Origin: an uncultured Opitutales bacterium
Lineage (GTDB): Bacteria > Verrucomicrobiota > Verrucomicrobiia > Opitutales > Intestinicryptomonadaceae
DNA: 64,000 nt
Assembly: GCA_944389315.1 (NCBI GenBank)
Contig: CALXLX010000038.1
Span: 1-64,000 of the forward strand
Direction: 5' to 3'
Part shown: positions 104 through 40,062 of the stretch, piece by piece
How positions within the stretch are numbered: the stretch's first letter is position 1
Layout: every line of letters begins with the position of its first letter
Notes under the pieces: model-generated
Databases searched by the model: none
What the model was told of the DNA's origin: nothing
Seen by the model: only the letters and a program-made list of their open reading frames with translations
Translations under genes and position numbers: made by a program

Positions 104-145
104 AAAGCCCGCAAGCCGCGCAATCAAGCGCCTTGCGGGCTTTTT
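104..145 (+). terminator. Rho-independent terminator after tRNA-Asn, probably bidirectional
   Basis: A 12-bp stem (AAAGCCCGCAAG at 104-115 with its complement at 132-143) is followed by a T run on the + strand. An A run precedes it, so it would also work for leftward transcripts arriving from the GH5-like gene. Confidence 0.85.
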
Positions 146-283
146 CATTTTTCGGGGGCATTGCGCAGCGCTCAAAGCTCGGCGGATTTCACCCGGCTTC
201 ATGCGTTTTGGGCCGATGGAATTTTGCCGTGGCCCCCCCCGAGCAAAGACGAATGTCCGCGCGAATATTTCCGATATATAGGG

Positions 284-1471
284 CTATTCCAGACCGTTTA
301 GCTCCCTTAATTTCTTAAAATAAATATTTCTGTCGCCGTCTTGCGATATGTCCCATTTCTGTCCCGTGCTATGGTCTTTTAGTCCGAATACCCAGACTGC
401 GCTCAGTTGGATTTTCGCCGCCTTCATGGCGGATACAATCTCCTCCATATACCTTATGTTTTCGGGATCCTCCATGCTGTTGGGAATGCCCCATTCGCCC
501 ACGAATATAGGCTTCCCAACGCGGTCCGAAACAGCCTTCGCAAACTGAAAGCTCTCCGAGATGCCGCCGGTCCATTTAAACGCAAGCATGGCGTCCTTAT
601 ATGCGTGTATCGTGATTGTGTCTATCGGGTCGGGATTGTCCTCGCGGAGCATTATTTTTGATTCTTCGGCGGAATCCTTATCCCATGTTCTTTTGTACCT
701 GTTATTGTATGCGGTGGAACGGATAATAGCATCTCCCGTGAAAACCGGCCTTGTTTTGTCCAGACTTTTGGCGATCTTTGCGAATTCTATATACGCGGGA
801 TATACGTCTTCCCTTTTCAATTTGTCAGCCTTGCTTCTCGCAGGGGGCATGCCCAAAGATGCTATTGCGATAGGCAGCCCCGTCTTTTCTCCGGGCAAAT
901 CGCAGGCAAGCGCAAATTCATTGCCAAACTCCCAGCCCCATATTGCGGGGCTGTCCTTGTAGCGCGTTATAACCTCCCTCGCGTAGGTGCGCATGAAATC
1001 CCGAGTCTTGGAATTTTCCTTGCCTATTGCGCTGACAGGCTCTTTCAGCAGATCTTGAAGCGTATAGTGAACCCAAAAAACCGAAGGAATCAGCCCTATG
1101 TTCAGCCTTTCGGCCTCTCTTACAACTTTGTCCAAATTGGAAAAATACGCCTCTTTGTCCTCCAGATACAGTTTCCAGTTTATCGGATAAAACGGAAACA
1201 CTGAAAACCTTATGAAGGGAACCTTGTTCTTTGACAATGTTTCCAGGCCGCGCTTCCACGACATGTCGTCCTCACGGCCTTTGACGGAGGCATTGTTTAT
1301 CGTTAAAAATACATTGAAGTAGTTTATTCCGTGCGCGTTGACCGCTTTCCCGTCTTTGTAAAAGCGCCCGTCTTTAATGTATAGGCCTTTGCCCGCCCCG
1401 AATAAAATAGCGCACTGAAAATACAGCGCCGTTAAGGCTAATTTAAGGAAAATAGAGATAATCCTCGCCAT
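284..1471 (-). CDS. Secreted GH5-like glycoside hydrolase (cellulase/mannanase superfamily)
   Basis: This 395-residue protein starts with a signal peptide or anchor (hydrophobic residues 4-25). It then reads as a (beta/alpha)8 glycosidase of the GH5 type (clan GH-A). The likely acid/base is Glu185 in WEFGNEF after strand 4, and the likely nucleophile is Glu326 in FVGEWG at strand 7; the HAY motif near 289 fits strand 6. Retaining hydrolysis of a beta-linked polysaccharide outside the cytoplasm is inferred from the family. The substrate (mannan, glucan or host glycan) cannot be read from the sequence. The start is supported by a G-rich Shine-Dalgarno about 10 bases upstream. It stands alone, next to another glycosidase gene on the same strand. 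Confidence 0.8.
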   Translation of the reverse strand: MARIISIFLKLALTALYFQCAILFGAGKGLYIKDGRFYKDGKAVNAHGINYFNVFLTINNASVKGREDDMSWKRGLETLSKNKVPFIRFSVFPFYPINWKLYLEDKEAYFSNLDKVVREAERLNIGLIPSVFWVHYTLQDLLKEPVSAIGKENSKTRDFMRTYAREVITRYKDSPAIWGWEFGNEFALACDLPGEKTGLPIAIASLGMPPARSKADKLKREDVYPAYIEFAKIAKSLDKTRPVFTGDAIIRSTAYNNRYKRTWDKDSAEESKIMLREDNPDPIDTITIHAYKDAMLAFKWTGGISESFQFAKAVSDRVGKPIFVGEWGIPNSMEDPENIRYMEEIVSAMKAAKIQLSAVWVFGLKDHSTGQKWDISQDGDRNIYFKKLRELNGLE

Positions 1472-1673
1472 ATAATAATATCCCCCCCTTGAATCGGTTA
1501 AAGCCTGACGAATGAATACTTTTTATCATATAAAAAAATCGCTCGCTAAATGTCAATACGGCGGGCGCTCCTCGCGGGCTTAGCTTTAAGTGCAGAATGT
1601 GCCCATTTATTTTTCTTAGTCTTAATCAAATCGCCAGCCTATGGAAGTGGGCAATATGCGGGCATGTTTGAGG

Positions 1674-1708
1674 CAAATAAAAATGCCGGAACATATAAGT
1701 TCCGGCAT
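1674..1708 (-). terminator. Terminator downstream of the fucosidase gene
   Basis: Read leftwards, a perfect 10-bp stem (ATGCCGGAAC at 1683-1692 against 1699-1708) with a 6-base loop is followed by TTTTTATTT. It lies about 55 bases past the fucosidase stop codon. Confidence 0.8.
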
Positions 1709-1764
1709 CGGGGAAAATTGGCGCCGGCCAAACGCCTGCGCAAGCCTCTCAGCCAAGAGGCGCG

Positions 1765-2810
1765 TTACAGGCAGTCTTTAACGCGCGCGTAGAGGTCTTT
1801 TAGGATTTTTACGTCTTCGTCCCTGAGCTTGCCGTTGCGGTTCGGCGGGCAGTTCAATATGAGGATATTGTCGTTTTTGGTGCAATGCCTGAAGAGCTTC
1901 TCCAATTCGTCCAGGGATTTAAACTCGTGGTCCTTGGTGTTGTAAAACCACCTCTTGCTTATGCATATTGTAGTTTCCCAGGGCATGTAGTATAGTTTCC
2001 CGTCGTGGGTGAAAAGCTTAGGGTCGTTGTCGGAAGGCAGGCGCGGGTCGCTAAGCCTAAAATCGCTCGGGAAATAGCGTATGGGATAGCCCTCCTTCTG
2101 GTCCTCCGGACGGCACATCGTGTCTATATTCTTTGGAGTGCCTATGGTATGGTGTTTATGCCCACCTGGCAGCCCGGTATCCTCGACTTGATAAGCTGGT
2201 ATATATCCATGACGGGCCAGCGGTAGCTTTCCTTAACCCAGCCTCCGTCGAACCAGAACTCGACTAAATCCGCATATTTTTCAGTTATGTCTATAAGCTC
2301 GTTTAATTGATTGAGCATATATTTGTTGTAGTCGGCGTCCTTTTTCCAATCCTTCACGTCGGCGTTAGCCTTCCTGTCCCAAAGAGAATAGTACAACCCC
2401 AGGCCTATGCCGTGCTTTTTGCATGCTTTGGCCACCTCCTCTATTACATTTGTCTTGTTGCCCGAACTTGCCACATCGTAGTCAGTGTACTTGCTGTCCC
2501 ACAGGCAGAATCCTTCGTGGTGCTTGGCGACAAGAATGATATAGCGCATGCCCGCATCTTTCGCCGCGCGCACCCACTGGTCGGCGTCTATGTTTGCGGG
2601 GGCGTATGACGGGGCGGGTTTTGAGCCGTCAGTCCATTCCTCGTCGTGAAAGGTGTTTATGCCAAAATGTATAAACATGCCGTACTTGCGCTCTATCTGC
2701 TTTCTCTGGGACTCGCTCGGCTCCGTCGAGGGCTGCGGCAAAATGATGTTTTGGGCATATGCAAAGCAGGCCATGCTCCATGCCAGAAGCAGCAAAAGAA
2801 ACTTCCTCAC
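1765..2810 (-). pseudogene. GH29 alpha-L-fucosidase split by a -1 frameshift
   Basis: Two adjacent reading frames together make one GH29 protein of about 348 residues. The upstream part starts at a GTG (2810) behind GGAGGG, has a signal peptide (LLLLLAWSMACFAYA), the family's MFIHFG and KHHEGF blocks, and the nucleophile Asp in FWFDGG (about residue 188). It runs into TAG at 2142-2144. The other frame resumes as HHTIGTP at about 2154 and carries the expected C-terminal half (DFRLSDPRLP, DPKLFTHDGKLYY, LILNCPPNRNGKL) to 1765. Losing or re-reading one base near 2154 restores the family sequence. I see no slippery heptamer. Possible explanations are a recent loss, a phase-variable gene or a sequencing error. 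An ATG at 2118 might allow only a useless C-terminal fragment. Confidence 0.82.
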
Positions 2811-3056
2811 ATATAATAAACCCTCCCTATGTAATGTCTTGTAATTAGAGCTATGCGTTAGTTTGAACGGCTCTTTTTCTTGGTGTCGATAGGCTATTAT
2901 CATTCTCGGCAATTGAGTCGAGGATGAGCATATATTGCCCTGGAATGTTTAAATTATTTCCCGCTTTCCTGCCCCGTAAAAATATTCGCAGGCGGTGTTA
3001 TGCCGCCCGCGTCAAATAATGGAATCTGCCCTTAATCCCAAAGCCGGAAAGCAATC

Positions 3057-3740
3057 TTACTTTGCGAGCCTGTAGCCGACTCCGCGCACCGTCTCTATGA
3101 GATCTGCCTTGTTCCCGAGCTTCTTTCTCAGGTTGGCTATGGCCACGTCCACGGCCCTGTCTGTGACGGGATAGCCGTCTCCGTGGAGATTCTTTATTAT
3201 TGCGTCCCTCGAAAATACCCTTCCGGGGGCGCGCACGAACATCTCGAGAATTTCAAATTCGTTTGCGGTCAGCTCCAGCGCCTTTGAGCCTATCCGCGCT
3301 TCGTGGAACTCGGTATCCATCTCTATTCCGTGCGCGCCGGCTTTCGACGAAGCCTGCGAGGACTCCTGCCCGCTCCTTAGCTGCGCACGCACCCTCGCGA
3401 GCAAAACGCGCTGGCTGAAAGGCTTTGTGATGTAGTCGTTGGCGCCGAATTCCAGCCCGCTGACTATGTCCGCCTCCTCGCTCCTGGCGGTTAGCATGAT
3501 TATGGGAATCTGCCTGAGGCTCTTGTCCGCCCTGTATATGCGGCAGAAATCTGTGCCGTCCATGCCGGTGAGCATGAGGTCGAGCAGTATGAGGTCGAAC
3601 GAAGCCCCTCCCTCAAAGAGTTTGAGCGCGGCCTCCGCCGAGTCCGTGCGCGAGCATTCAAAACCGTTCTTCTCGAGGTTGAATTTTACGAGTTCGGCTA
3701 TGGCGTCTTCGTCTTCTATTATCAGTATGTGTTTTTTCAT
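3057..3740 (-). CDS. phoB: PhoB-type response regulator (OmpR/PhoB family)
   Basis: This 227-residue protein has an N-terminal receiver domain (about 1-120) with acidic pocket Glu9/Asp10/Asp11, phospho-acceptor Asp54 (LILLDLML) and the conserved Lys in ITKPF. A C-terminal winged helix (about 135-225) has the family's ending IETVRGVGYRLA. Linkage to a PhoR-like kinase (4-base overlap with its gene) and to the pst genes across the divergent promoter region supports a role in turning on phosphate uptake at low phosphate. Other OmpR-family roles are possible on sequence alone, but the context makes PhoB by far the best fit. Confidence 0.93.
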   Translation of the reverse strand: MKKHILIIEDEDAIAELVKFNLEKNGFECSRTDSAEAALKLFEGGASFDLILLDLMLTGMDGTDFCRIYRADKSLRQIPIIMLTARSEEADIVSGLEFGANDYITKPFSQRVLLARVRAQLRSGQESSQASSKAGAHGIEMDTEFHEARIGSKALELTANEFEILEMFVRAPGRVFSRDAIIKNLHGDGYPVTDRAVDVAIANLRKKLGNKADLIETVRGVGYRLAK

Positions 3741-5515
3741 AGTCTGTCGGCGAATGAAATCGAAAATTCCGATCCTTTGTCTGGCTTGCTTTTTACGGAG
3801 GCCTCTCCTCCGTGCATTATCGCAACGTGTTTGACTATTGCAAGCCCCAAGCCCGTGCCGCCGAGCGCGCGTGATCTGCCCTTGTCGACGCGGAAGAAGC
3901 GCTCAAAGAGCCTCGGCAGGTGCTCGGCGGCTATGCCGGGGCCGCTGTCTCCGACGCTGATTACGGTCTTTGTCCCCTCCCTGTGCGCCGAGAGCGTTAT
4001 CTTGCAGTTTTTCCCGCCGTATTTTACCGCGTTGTCCACAAGGCTGCTTACCGCTATCAGCGCGAGGGTCCTGTCCCCGGATATTTCGAGGTCTCCGGGG
4101 CATATGATTTCAGTGGAGTCCTCCATGTTCTCAGCCTGGGGCGCGTGCGAGGACAGCGCCTCAGCAAGAAGCTGCGCGACGTTGAAGCGCGTAAAGGTCT
4201 TCTGCGCGTATTCCTCGGTAAATTCAATCCGGGAGAGCAGGAGCATGTCGTTTACAAGGTTTGCCATTCTGTCGCTCTGGGTGTTTATCATCTTGGCGAA
4301 GTGCTTTGCCTCCTGCGTTATATCGAGCTCCTCGAGGGTCTCCGCGCACATCTTTATGGAGGTTATCGGGGTTTTCAGCTCGTGCGACACCCCGGATACA
4401 AACTCCCTCCTGAGCCTTTCGGCGCGCTTTTCCGGCGAGACGTTCCTCATGACAAACAGCGCCCTTGCGTTTTGCGAGTTGTAGGGCAGGGGAGTCCCCG
4501 TGACCGCGTATGGGCCCTCCGTGGATATCTCCACCGTCTTCGAGACTATTTTTTTAGAGTCGAAAGTCTCCGCTATCAGGCTGAGAAGCTCCGTATTCCT
4601 GAGATACTCGGCCATGTCGATGTTTTCGGCGTTCTCGGGTATCCCGAAGAGCTTTGCCAGCGCCTTGTTGAAGCGCCTTATGCGGCCGTCCTGGGAGCAT
4701 ATGAATACGCACTCGGCCATCTGCCCGAAGATTTCGTCGAGCTCGAAATTGCGCTTCTTGAGGGACTTTATCCTCTTTTTAAGGTTGCGAGCCATCTCCG
4801 AGAGTGAGTTTGCAAGAGTGTCTATCTCCTCGGTCCGGCTCTTCTGGGGCTCTGCGTCGAAGTTCCCGTTGGTGTATTGTATGGAAAGCTCCGTCAGGCG
4901 TTTTAGCGGGCTTGCTATGCGCCTTGCTATCAGCCAGGAGAAGAGCGCCGCTGCCATTATGGCGATAGTGGCTATTGCGGCGCAGTCGGCTGCGAGAAGC
5001 TTCCTGCTCTTTGCCAACGACGATGCCGGTATGGACTGCCTGACGCAGTACGCGGCGCCGCCGCCAGACATCTTCCCCGCGGGGGCTGCCACGTATATCA
5101 TCTTTTTAAAAAGGGTCTCGGAATGCCTCTGCTCGAAGGTCTTTTGGCCTTTTAGGGCCTCGCGCACTTCGGCCCTGTCCATATGGTTGGGCATCTTTGC
5201 GGCGTCGGCTTCGGAGTCGAACAGGACGGCCCCGTCCGAGCCTATCAGCGTGGTGCGTATGTCGAGCTCCTTGTCGAAGCTCTTTGCCGTTCGAGATATC
5301 TTGTCGAGCGGAAGCCCGGCGTCGAGGCAGTCGGTTATCAGGCTCGACGAGACGTCGAGTATGTTTTTGGCGTTGCGCTCTATGTCACGCTCGAGCAGCG
5401 AGTATCCCAGCAGCCCCGCCGATATTATTATCAGTGCGCACAGTCCCAGCGTAGAGGTGAATATCCTGAAAAACACGCTGCGGGATTTGCCGTTAGTTTC
5501 CAATATGTCGCCCAT
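3737..5515 (-). CDS. phoR: PhoR-type sensor histidine kinase
   Basis: This 592-residue membrane kinase has TM1 at about residues 12-41, an extracytoplasmic sensor region of about 130 residues and TM2 at about 175-197. These are followed by a HAMP linker (to about 250), a PAS domain (about 257-360), and a HisKA domain with His378 in SGVSHELKTP. The C-terminal ATPase domain shows the N box (DNAVKYGG), G1 (GDSGPGI) and G2 (GGTGLGLAI). E. coli PhoR lacks a sizeable periplasmic domain; this architecture is closer to the PhoR of Bacillus-type systems. It overlaps phoB by 4 bases, so the two are translationally coupled. Its product probably phosphorylates PhoB when phosphate is scarce, with PhoU and the Pst transporter as partners. 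Confidence 0.9.
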   Translation of the reverse strand: MGDILETNGKSRSVFFRIFTSTLGLCALIIISAGLLGYSLLERDIERNAKNILDVSSSLITDCLDAGLPLDKISRTAKSFDKELDIRTTLIGSDGAVLFDSEADAAKMPNHMDRAEVREALKGQKTFEQRHSETLFKKMIYVAAPAGKMSGGGAAYCVRQSIPASSLAKSRKLLAADCAAIATIAIMAAALFSWLIARRIASPLKRLTELSIQYTNGNFDAEPQKSRTEEIDTLANSLSEMARNLKKRIKSLKKRNFELDEIFGQMAECVFICSQDGRIRRFNKALAKLFGIPENAENIDMAEYLRNTELLSLIAETFDSKKIVSKTVEISTEGPYAVTGTPLPYNSQNARALFVMRNVSPEKRAERLRREFVSGVSHELKTPITSIKMCAETLEELDITQEAKHFAKMINTQSDRMANLVNDMLLLSRIEFTEEYAQKTFTRFNVAQLLAEALSSHAPQAENMEDSTEIICPGDLEISGDRTLALIAVSSLVDNAVKYGGKNCKITLSAHREGTKTVISVGDSGPGIAAEHLPRLFERFFRVDKGRSRALGGTGLGLAIVKHVAIMHGGEASVKSKPDKGSEFSISFADRL

Positions 5516-37396: not shown

Positions 37397-37430
37397 AAAA
37401 AAGCCGGCGCGGGTCGGAACGCGCCGGCTT
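37397..37430 (-). terminator. Terminator of the yugP-grpE-dnaJ unit
   Basis: Read leftwards, a perfect 10-bp stem AAGCCGGCGC/GCGCCGGCTT (37401-37410 and 37421-37430) is followed by a run of six T residues, 23 bases after the dnaJ stop. Confidence 0.92.
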
Positions 37431-37452
37431 TAAAATTTGTCAGCCTTTAAAT

Positions 37453-38643
37453 TTAATCCTTAAAGACCCTTTTGAAGAACGACGAAGATGCCGATTCAGG
37501 CTCGTGCTTGTCGTCTCCGCAGGCCAGGGCGAACTCCTCTAGCTTTTTGGTCTGCTCCGGCGTGAGCTTGCGGGGAACCTCAACGATGACTTTTACAAAC
37601 TGGTCCCCCTTTGCAGAAGAGTTTAATACCGGCATTCCTTGGCCCTTTATTCTAAAGAGTGTGCCTGTCTGGGTGCCGGCGGGTATCTTCAAGTTGACTT
37701 TGCCCGTCAGTGTCCTTACCTCCAGATTGCCGCCGAGCGCCGCAAGCGTGAACTTTATGGGCATCTGGCAGTATAGATTGTTGCCGTCGCGCTCGAAGAA
37801 ACTGTGTTCGGCAACAACTATTACAACGTACAAATCACCGTAGGGGCCCCCGTCTATCCCTGCGTTGCCCGCACCGCTCTTGCGCAGGCGAGAGCCCGTG
37901 TAAACGCCAGCGGGTATCTTTATCTTGACTTCGCTCCTCTGCTTTACGCGGCCTGTTCCGTTGCAGTCGGGGCAGGGGCTTTCTATGACTTTGCCAGTGC
38001 CTCCGCAGTTCGGGCAAGTCTGCGTGAAACGCATGAAGCCGTTGCTCTTCGTGACGGAACCGGCCCCCTTGCATGTCGGGCAGGTCTTCTTTGATGTGCC
38101 CGCCTTCGCCCCCGAGCCGTTGCATGTCGGGCACGATACAAGGCGGTTGTACTTTATGGTCTTCTCCGTGCCGGAAGCGGCCTCCTCGAGGGTTATCTCC
38201 AGCTCTATGCGCATGTCGCTGCCGCGCCGAGGCGCAGCGGCCCTGCCGCCACCGTCGTCGTCATATCCGCCGCCGAAAAAGTCAAACCCGCCGAACCCGC
38301 CGAATCCGCCGGAACCTTTCCCGCCGAACCCGCCGAAAAACTCGTTGAATATGTCCGCCGCGTCGCGGAAATTGCCGTATTGCGCTCCGCCTCCCGGAGA
38401 CCCCATGCCACCCGCCTGGAACGCCGCATGGCCGTAGCGGTCGTACGCGGCGCGCTTCTCGGGGTCGCTGAGAACCTGGTAGGCGTCTGATACCTGCTTG
38501 AATTTCTCCTCGGCCTCCTTGTTTCCGGGATTCCTGTCCGGATGGTATTTGAGGGCGAGCTTCCTGTACGCCTTCTTTATTTCCTGGGCGTCTGCGTCCT
38601 TAGCCACGCCCAAAAGTTCGTAATAGTCCTGCGTATCTGCCAT
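37453..38643 (-). CDS. dnaJ: Chaperone DnaJ (Hsp40)
   Basis: This 396-residue type I J-protein has a J domain (about 6-72) with the HPD triad in YHPDRNPG. A Gly/Phe-rich region follows (about 75-125, including [13 protein letters not shown]). The zinc region has four CxxCxGxG repeats ([32 protein letters not shown]), followed by the C-terminal substrate-binding domains. It stimulates the ATPase of DnaK, whose gene is not in this window. It lies 15 bases after grpE. Confidence 0.97.
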
Positions 38644-38658
38644 AGGAAAACCCTCTTA

Positions 38659-39390
38659 CTACATCTCTCCCTTTGAGACCACCACGCTGGCCGGACGCAA
38701 CAGCCTGCCGTTGAGCGAGTATCCAAGGCGCATCACGCCCATTACCTTGCCCTCGGGCACCTCCGCGCTTGGCTCGTGCGCGACACACTCCGCATTGTTG
38801 GGGTCGAAATCCTGCCCCATGGGGTCTATCTCCTTTACCCCGAAAGATTCAAAAACCTTCTTGACCTGCTTGTCCACCATGACAAGCCCCTCCGCATAGG
38901 TCTTGGTCGCCGGATTCCCCTCCAGCCCGCCTATGGCCATCGCGAGCGTGTCCAAAGACGGCAATAGAGACTCCACCAGCGGGGAAATGGCGAACTTCGA
39001 GAGCTCCTCCTTCTCCCTTTGCACCTTGCGGCGGTAGTTTTCCAGATCGGCAACGGCGCGCAGGTATAAATCGCGGTTCTTTGCGGCCGCTTCGGTTGCT
39101 TCGTCGAGCTTCTTTAAAAGATCCGTCTCAGCGCCTTCCTCGGATTGTTTCTCCTTGCAGCATTTGCCGTCTGCATTCTGCTCGTGGCAGCATTTCTTCT
39201 CGCCGCCTTCTGCGTGCCCATGATGGCAGCCGCAATGCTCGTGTTCCGGGTGTTCTTTGCAGCACTTGTCCGCCTTCTCGCCGTGGTCACAGCACTCTGC
39301 CGAGTGCTCCTCATCGCGGGCGCAACAGCATTCCTGCCCGTCTTTATCCGACTGCTTCTTCTTTGAGTTTTTCAAATCCTGATCTTTCAT
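38659..39390 (-). CDS. grpE: Nucleotide exchange factor GrpE with a Cys/His-rich N-terminal extension
   Basis: The last 160 residues of this 243-residue protein are ordinary GrpE: a long coiled coil (about 88-140, with RAVADLENYRRKVQREKEE) and the beta domain (GVKEIDPMGQDFDPNNAECVAHEPS to the C terminus). It releases ADP from DnaK. The first 85 residues are unusual: residues 21-78 hold 13 cysteines (21-23, 33, 34, 43, 44, 53, 55, 67, 68, 77, 78) and 9 histidines among Lys and Glu, mostly as CC pairs. This looks like a metal- or redox-binding head. The start ATG is three bases from the end of the upstream metalloprotease gene, so the extension is in the natural reading frame. Confidence 0.93.
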   Translation of the reverse strand: MKDQDLKNSKKKQSDKDGQECCCARDEEHSAECCDHGEKADKCCKEHPEHEHCGCHHGHAEGGEKKCCHEQNADGKCCKEKQSEEGAETDLLKKLDEATEAAAKNRDLYLRAVADLENYRRKVQREKEELSKFAISPLVESLLPSLDTLAMAIGGLEGNPATKTYAEGLVMVDKQVKKVFESFGVKEIDPMGQDFDPNNAECVAHEPSAEVPEGKVMGVMRLGYSLNGRLLRPASVVVSKGEM

Positions 39391-39393
39391 AAA

Positions 39394-40062
39394 TTATCTC
39401 TGCCTCGTCATTGACGCCAAATATAGCAGCCAGCCCAAACTCGATATGAACGCCGCAACATAGGTAAATGCGGCCGCATCGAGAGTTTCCTCTACCCCGT
39501 CAAGCTCCTCGCCTTCGGCCAAGCCGAGGGCCGATAGCCTCTTCTTCGCCCGGGCGGAAGCGTTGAACTCCACCGGCAAAGTGACAAGCTGGAATATCGT
39601 AAGCACCAAATACACCGCTATGCCCGCCCATATCGCCATGTGGCTGTGGAAGAGGAAAAATCCCCCAAGCATGATTATGGGCAGCAGCTGCGACGCGAAA
39701 TTTGTAACTGGTATCAGCGCCATTCTAAGTTTCAAGGGCGCGTAGCCCTGCTCGTGCTGTATGGCGTGCCCGGCTTCGTGCGCGGCGACACCTATCGCGG
39801 CAAGCGACGTGCCGTCGTAATTTTCCTCGGACAAGGCCAAAACTTTTCTCGTAGGGTCGTAATGGTCCGTCAAATGGCCGCCTATCTTCTCTATGGAAAC
39901 ATCGCTTATCCCCGCGCTTTCAAGCACGGCATGCGCAGCCTCCGCGCCGGTGTATCCCGCGCGCGAGCGTATGGCCGAATTCTTCGCATATGCCGACGAT
40001 ATCCTCATCTGCGCGTACATGCCCACGAAAATCGGTATTAGTATCAATATCAAAAAATTCAT
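39394..40062 (-). CDS. YugP-like membrane zinc metallopeptidase
   Basis: This 222-residue protein starts with a membrane helix (about 1-18) and has the metallopeptidase motif HEAGH in VAAHEAGHAIQHEQGY. Two or three more helices follow (about 120-165 and 195-215). The sequence order, including GHLTDHYDPTRKVLALSEENYDGTSLAAIGVA (split over about 62-93), matches the YugP/zinc-peptidase DUF family. Substrates are unknown. It ends three bases before grpE and likely shares its transcript, which suggests a link with protein quality control. Confidence 0.87.
   Translation of the reverse strand: MNFLILILIPIFVGMYAQMRISSAYAKNSAIRSRAGYTGAEAAHAVLESAGISDVSIEKIGGHLTDHYDPTRKVLALSEENYDGTSLAAIGVAAHEAGHAIQHEQGYAPLKLRMALIPVTNFASQLLPIIMLGGFFLFHSHMAIWAGIAVYLVLTIFQLVTLPVEFNASARAKKRLSALGLAEGEELDGVEETLDAAAFTYVAAFISSLGWLLYLASMTRQR

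Follow-up and report, generated by a model that had tools for sequence, protein, structure and literature searches.

Why would the nucleotide exchange factor of DnaK carry a dense run of cysteines and histidines at its N-terminus? The question is raised by a grpE gene on a contig of an uncultured Opitutales bacterium (Verrucomicrobiota), of which we analysed a stretch of 64,000 nucleotides (hereafter the window). Milder forms of the same trait in related families raise the possibility that metal or redox state feeds directly into the central folding machinery of the cell. The gene (38659–39390, minus strand), recognized from the list of open reading frames and by Pfam family PF01025, encodes a protein of 243 amino acids and is the only grpE in the host genome assembly (2.27 Mb in 54 contigs, 91% complete). 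The host is presumed to be an anaerobe with a reducing cytoplasm.

Most of the protein is conventional. A preliminary description of this DNA had called it an otherwise normal GrpE, and the profile match bears this out: residues 80–240 (38671–39153, minus strand), comprising the stalk helix, four-helix bundle and beta-wing, align with positions 5–165 of PF01025 (E = 9e-45; 152.7 bits against a cut-off of 25.8), and E. coli GrpE (1dkg) matches from residue 97 on. What sets the protein apart lies upstream. After a leading Lys-rich segment without Cys or His (residues 1–20; 39331–39390, minus strand; MKDQDLKNSKKKQSDKDGQE), residues 21–78 (39157–39330, minus strand) read CCCARDEEHSAECCDHGEKADKCCKEHPEHEHCGCHHGHAEGGEKKCCHEQNADGKCC. 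Of these 58 amino acids 13 are Cys and 9 are His, exactly as had been reported, at coordinates within 7 bases of ours. The Cys fall into a CCC (21–23), four CC pairs (33–34, 43–44, 67–68 and 77–78) and a CxC (53/55); the earlier remark that CC pairs are packed into this head thus corresponds to five CC runs beside the one CxC, runs of the kind reported as metal anchors in Helicobacter pylori HspA. At the background composition of 1.8% Cys and 1.6% His (54 non-overlapping open reading frames of the window), about one Cys and one His would be expected in 58 residues, and the next richest stretch in the window has 10 Cys plus His per 58 residues against 22 here. The binomial chance of such a composition is approximately 2e-11 for Cys alone and 8e-18 for Cys plus His, values that serve as description only, since the segment was selected after it had been noticed.

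Is this tail really part of the protein? The last ATG, GTG or TTG in frame before codon 123 is codon 6 (TTG), and codon 123 itself sits within the conserved ENYRRK helix of GrpE. With no in-frame start between the two, any functional GrpE from this gene should carry the tail; in other words, the reading frame indicates that it is translated if GrpE is. The possibility that translation begins downstream and omits the head, which the preliminary description had allowed for, is contradicted by this absence of a usable internal start. An assembly error can likewise be set aside, because an independent metagenome-assembled genome of the same genus encodes a GrpE of equal overall length in which the tail is intact. 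We also considered expansion of a tandem repeat at the DNA level, for which the short imperfect repeats of 10–15 nt that were found give no strong support. The tail has no significant match in Pfam, NCBIfam or PDB, including to metallothionein or any other catalogued metal-binding domain, and a sequence search found no match to it elsewhere in its own genome. An AlphaFold2 model (three-sequence alignment) assigns pLDDT below 50 to nearly all of residues 1–89 and draws the tail mostly as coil, and the N-terminal tail is therefore predicted to be disordered.

The surroundings of the gene are partly typical and partly local. Fifteen nucleotides downstream of grpE lies dnaJ (37453–38643, minus strand; Pfam DnaJ, DnaJ_C and DnaJ_CXXCXGXG), followed by a terminator-like hairpin (37400–37431, minus strand; 12 pairs, 9 of them GC, then a run of T), identified by consensus match only. 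The grpE–dnaJ order is kept in nearly all relatives across the order. A gene for a putative zinc metallopeptidase (Zn_peptidase_2; 39394–40062, minus strand; PF04298, E = 4e-81) ends 3 nt upstream of grpE; among the relatives compared, it occupies this position in the window's genus only. A different contig carries the single full-length dnaK of the genome (contig C45 of G000; locus L099, positions 105–4794), in the order FUR-family regulator, rubrerythrin, dnaK, groES, groEL, the last recognized from its sequence; the content of this cluster suggests an oxidative-stress linkage of the main chaperones. Control by HrcA through CIRCE was considered and rejected, as a search that tolerated up to three mismatches found no CIRCE-like site either in the window or around dnaK.

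If the tail matters, its Cys should outlast the residues around them. One other genome of the window's genus was available for comparison, and in the GrpE of this sister species the tail contains 10 Cys and 9 His. The two proteins are approximately 95% identical in the GrpE body and approximately 35% identical in the tail. Within residues 21–88, nine of 13 Cys and four of nine His are kept in the sister species, as against 11 of the 46 other residues (Fisher p = 0.006 for Cys). Because aligners give Cys matches a high score and so favour such a test, it was repeated without gaps: six Cys positions are shared where 1.9 are expected (hypergeometric p = 0.002; p = 0.04 when the Cys spacings are permuted). 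At the codon level the tail has pN 0.34 and pS 0.75, and the core pN 0.04 and pS 0.67; since pN lies below pS, the tail is coding and constrained as protein, though it is fast-changing, its nonsynonymous rate being roughly ten times that of the core (dN 0.46 vs 0.043). Beyond the genus the spacing is loose. The sister species has five ungapped Cys positions in common with the GrpE of a third genus (G007; p = 0.003–0.006), and the window's GrpE has three, an overlap that is not significant (p = 0.24–0.34). This comparison indicates that Cys clusters are kept while the rest of the tail diverges.

How widely does such a tail occur? We read GrpE tails from 108 distinct loci, 107 of which could be placed on a tree built from the core alone. 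At least four tail Cys (range 4–13) were found in 13 of these 107 proteins, spread over five Opitutales families: four in the window's own family (f1), four in f19, three in f21, and one each in f23 and f9. Families f11 and f14, with 34 GrpEs, have zero or one tail Cys in each. Long putative upstream extensions with Cys at four loci (L025, L030, L088 and L123) were treated as start-site artefacts and excluded from the count. The counts cover the order Opitutales; a profile search at phylum level ranked its matches by core similarity too, so that Cys-rich GrpE tails may also exist in other orders. On the core tree, parsimony requires at least seven changes in the Cys-rich state, four of them forced by strongly supported (starred) branches; the tree has few alignment columns, which leaves many deep forks open and gains indistinguishable from losses. 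The window's tail is the richest in Cys of all those compared. Tails from f23 (KHDCKCHEN..PCGCEHE..GCCKG) and f21 (KCHCHEH..SCCGE..CQCKG) combine CxC or CC with His as the window's tail does, and those of f19 share a conserved stretch of the CGMGFCPESEGADTACEC type in which His is nearly absent. The head is thus present in relatives, as the preliminary description had proposed to establish: the sister species has it, and milder versions occur in other genera and in four further families. Many GrpEs of the window's own family have just one to three tail Cys, and for this reason the Cys-rich tail cannot be essential. The evidence indicates that this tail is real, retained in its lineage and recurrent, and its function we infer by analogy.

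Several further features of these GrpEs deserve mention. Four f19 species of one genus (g37; L105–L108) have a nearly His-free Cys stretch, C-GM-F-CPESEGADTACEC; it is more strongly conserved than the tail in the window, and might be simpler to test. In another genus of f1 (g2; L008, L010, L013, L016, L020, L040 and L041) most GrpEs have an acidic-flanked EEQ-hydrophobic motif, MCxEEQ(A/S)xN or a close variant, immediately ahead of the coiled coil; it is missing from the GrpE tails of the window's genus, and is possibly the local equivalent of the DnaK-binding IIM motif of E. coli. One g2 genome (G009), a single contig of 2.3 Mb and 95% complete, has no detectable GrpE (PF01025) where its relatives have one, possibly a true loss or a masked region. 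At L043 (G013, contig C53), grpE is apparently split by an in-frame TAG, which could reflect a pseudogene or an assembly error.

What might the tail do? The explanation that we favour, with about even confidence and by analogy with known metal-holding tails, is that this disordered segment acts as a flexible metal-thiolate/imidazole array that would buffer metal and possibly tune DnaK. The approximately six Cys clusters (CCC, CC or CxC), about 10–13 residues apart and interspersed with His along a chain that is acidic and not hydrophobic, would form the ligand array, and the GrpE dimer would place 26 tail Cys and 18 tail His beside DnaK. In a reducing cytoplasm the tail may hold several metal ions of the soft or borderline class, of which Zn(II) is the most probable, Cu(I) is possible and Ni is less probable. 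We rank Ni below Zn and Cu since neither NiFe hydrogenase (PF00374) nor urease (PF00449) was found in the genome, a modest argument in an assembly that is 91% complete and with these two as the Ni enzymes covered; on the same grounds, nickel storage for hydrogenase or urease is disfavoured. Two roles seem likely: metal buffering or sequestration, and a switch between a metal-bound and a metal-free or oxidized state, altering the reach of the tail to the substrate-binding domain of DnaK. Such a switch would tune client release in metal or oxidative stress. The position of dnaK behind a FUR-family regulator and rubrerythrin also speaks for the metal-array reading. Residues 7–90 contain no I, L, V, M, F, W or Y; the tail therefore lacks an IIM-type motif and, to judge from its composition, should be a poor pseudo-substrate for DnaK.

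The same Cys could serve without any standing metal. As a thiol redox switch, vicinal and CxC Cys would form disulfides within or between chains, tails would compact or crosslink and GrpE activity would change, or oxidation would release Zn as in Hsp33. The CC and CxC clusters suit this reading, as do the relatives that are Cys-rich with almost no His (G002 with 7 Cys and 1 His; f19 with 5 and 1), the position of dnaK behind FUR-family and rubrerythrin genes, and the precedent of Cys87 in human GrpEL2 (PMC12987570). The nine His in the tails of both the window's GrpE and that of the sister species, however, are easier to explain by metal binding than by thiol chemistry alone. That no Hsp33 was detected in the window's family might also seem to favour a redox switch, but Hsp33 is absent from most Cys-poor relatives too (6 of 54 genomes have a match), so that its absence does not discriminate, and the idea that the tail substitutes for a missing Hsp33 was dropped on the same count. 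We consider a switch of this kind unlikely. Alternatively, the tail may be a pure metal sink or store that rides on an abundant protein and leaves DnaK unaffected, as has been proposed for HspA. The anatomy is the same, since in both cases an abundant co-chaperone bears a His/Cys tail; H. pylori is viable without the HspA tail, which nevertheless affects nickel content and tolerance (PMC3856676); and the window's tail lacks the hydrophobic motif through which E. coli GrpE tails engage DnaK. Against this, the tail recurs on GrpE specifically, in five families, and nothing similar occurs on the genome's own GroES (no Cys, no His) or on the C-terminal tail of its DnaK, which has no Cys-rich segment. 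This hints, weakly, that the position on GrpE matters, and we give a pure sink a small chance.

Near-neutral drift would dispense with function altogether: a poorly constrained acidic linker would have wandered, in a reducing cytoplasm, to a Cys/His-rich composition. The tenfold faster nonsynonymous change in the tail and the wide differences in Cys number inside f1 are what such drift would produce. It does not readily account for the preferential keeping of Cys in the sister species, for CxC and CC clusters that appear repeatedly in five families while the 34 GrpEs of f11 and f14 stay almost free of Cys, or for the fact that no other protein of the window shows such a composition, and we judge it very improbable. 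Returning to the metal-thiolate array, a broader proposal is that Opitutales repeatedly turned the DnaK-facing GrpE tail into a metal/redox switch, so that Hsp70 would release its substrates according to the zinc, copper or thiol status of the cytoplasm and GrpE would be a metal- or redox-gated nucleotide exchange factor; this we offer tentatively, as rather doubtful.

Bacterial GrpE is known as a thermosensor of the DnaK cycle. If the metal/thiol array works as proposed, in the very tail that comes close to the substrate groove of DnaK, bacteria would offer an example of Hsp70 taking its cue directly from metal or redox state. We found no published description of a Cys/His-rich GrpE tail in the literature searched, which included few subscription papers. 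Among proteins that do couple metal or thiols to protein folding, Hsp33, a chaperone under Zn-thiolate/redox control, comes near in mechanistic idea but is an unrelated protein, and its family was not detected in the window's own genome. SlyD, HypB and Hpn hold metal in His/Cys-rich low-complexity segments, but are different proteins with no family match to the tail; a description of Hpn is given in PMC3856676. In human GrpEL2, Hsp70 coupling has been proposed to respond to oxidation of the Cys87 thiol (PMC12987570), although this is a single stalk Cys that forms an inter-protomer disulfide, not a tail array.

The closest relative in fold is E. coli GrpE (1dkg), which shares the full core and the disordered N-terminal tail with the window's protein, here the product of a sole, canonically dnaJ-adjacent grpE. 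In E. coli the tail is acidic and occupies the DnaK substrate groove via IIM flanked by Glu, competing with clients (PMC12915176), whereas the window's tail has 13 Cys and 9 His in place of any such motif; Glu-flanked hydrophobic motifs are common in GrpE and not defining for PF01025. A review treats the pseudo-substrate role of bacterial GrpE tails as unsettled, not directly visualized and structurally constrained (PMC12987570), and the Opitutales GrpEs offer natural tail swaps for this question. The closest relative in anatomy is H. pylori HspA, a GroES whose tail of 4 Cys and 8 His with two CC pairs binds 2 Ni per monomer (PMC5116745), supports hydrogenase maturation and, when deleted, lowers nickel content and tolerance (PMC3856676). 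Both are essential co-chaperones with a terminal His/Cys-rich extension containing CC pairs, but HspA has the GroES fold, a shorter, C-terminal tail, a measured capacity to bind metal and a role in nickel supply to hydrogenase; the likeness is one of analogy, not homology. The feature is, by family assignment, a GrpE with HspA-like anatomy that lies outside the HspA family, and if our reading holds, the principle known from HspA, the co-chaperone as metal holder, would have a second example of independent origin.
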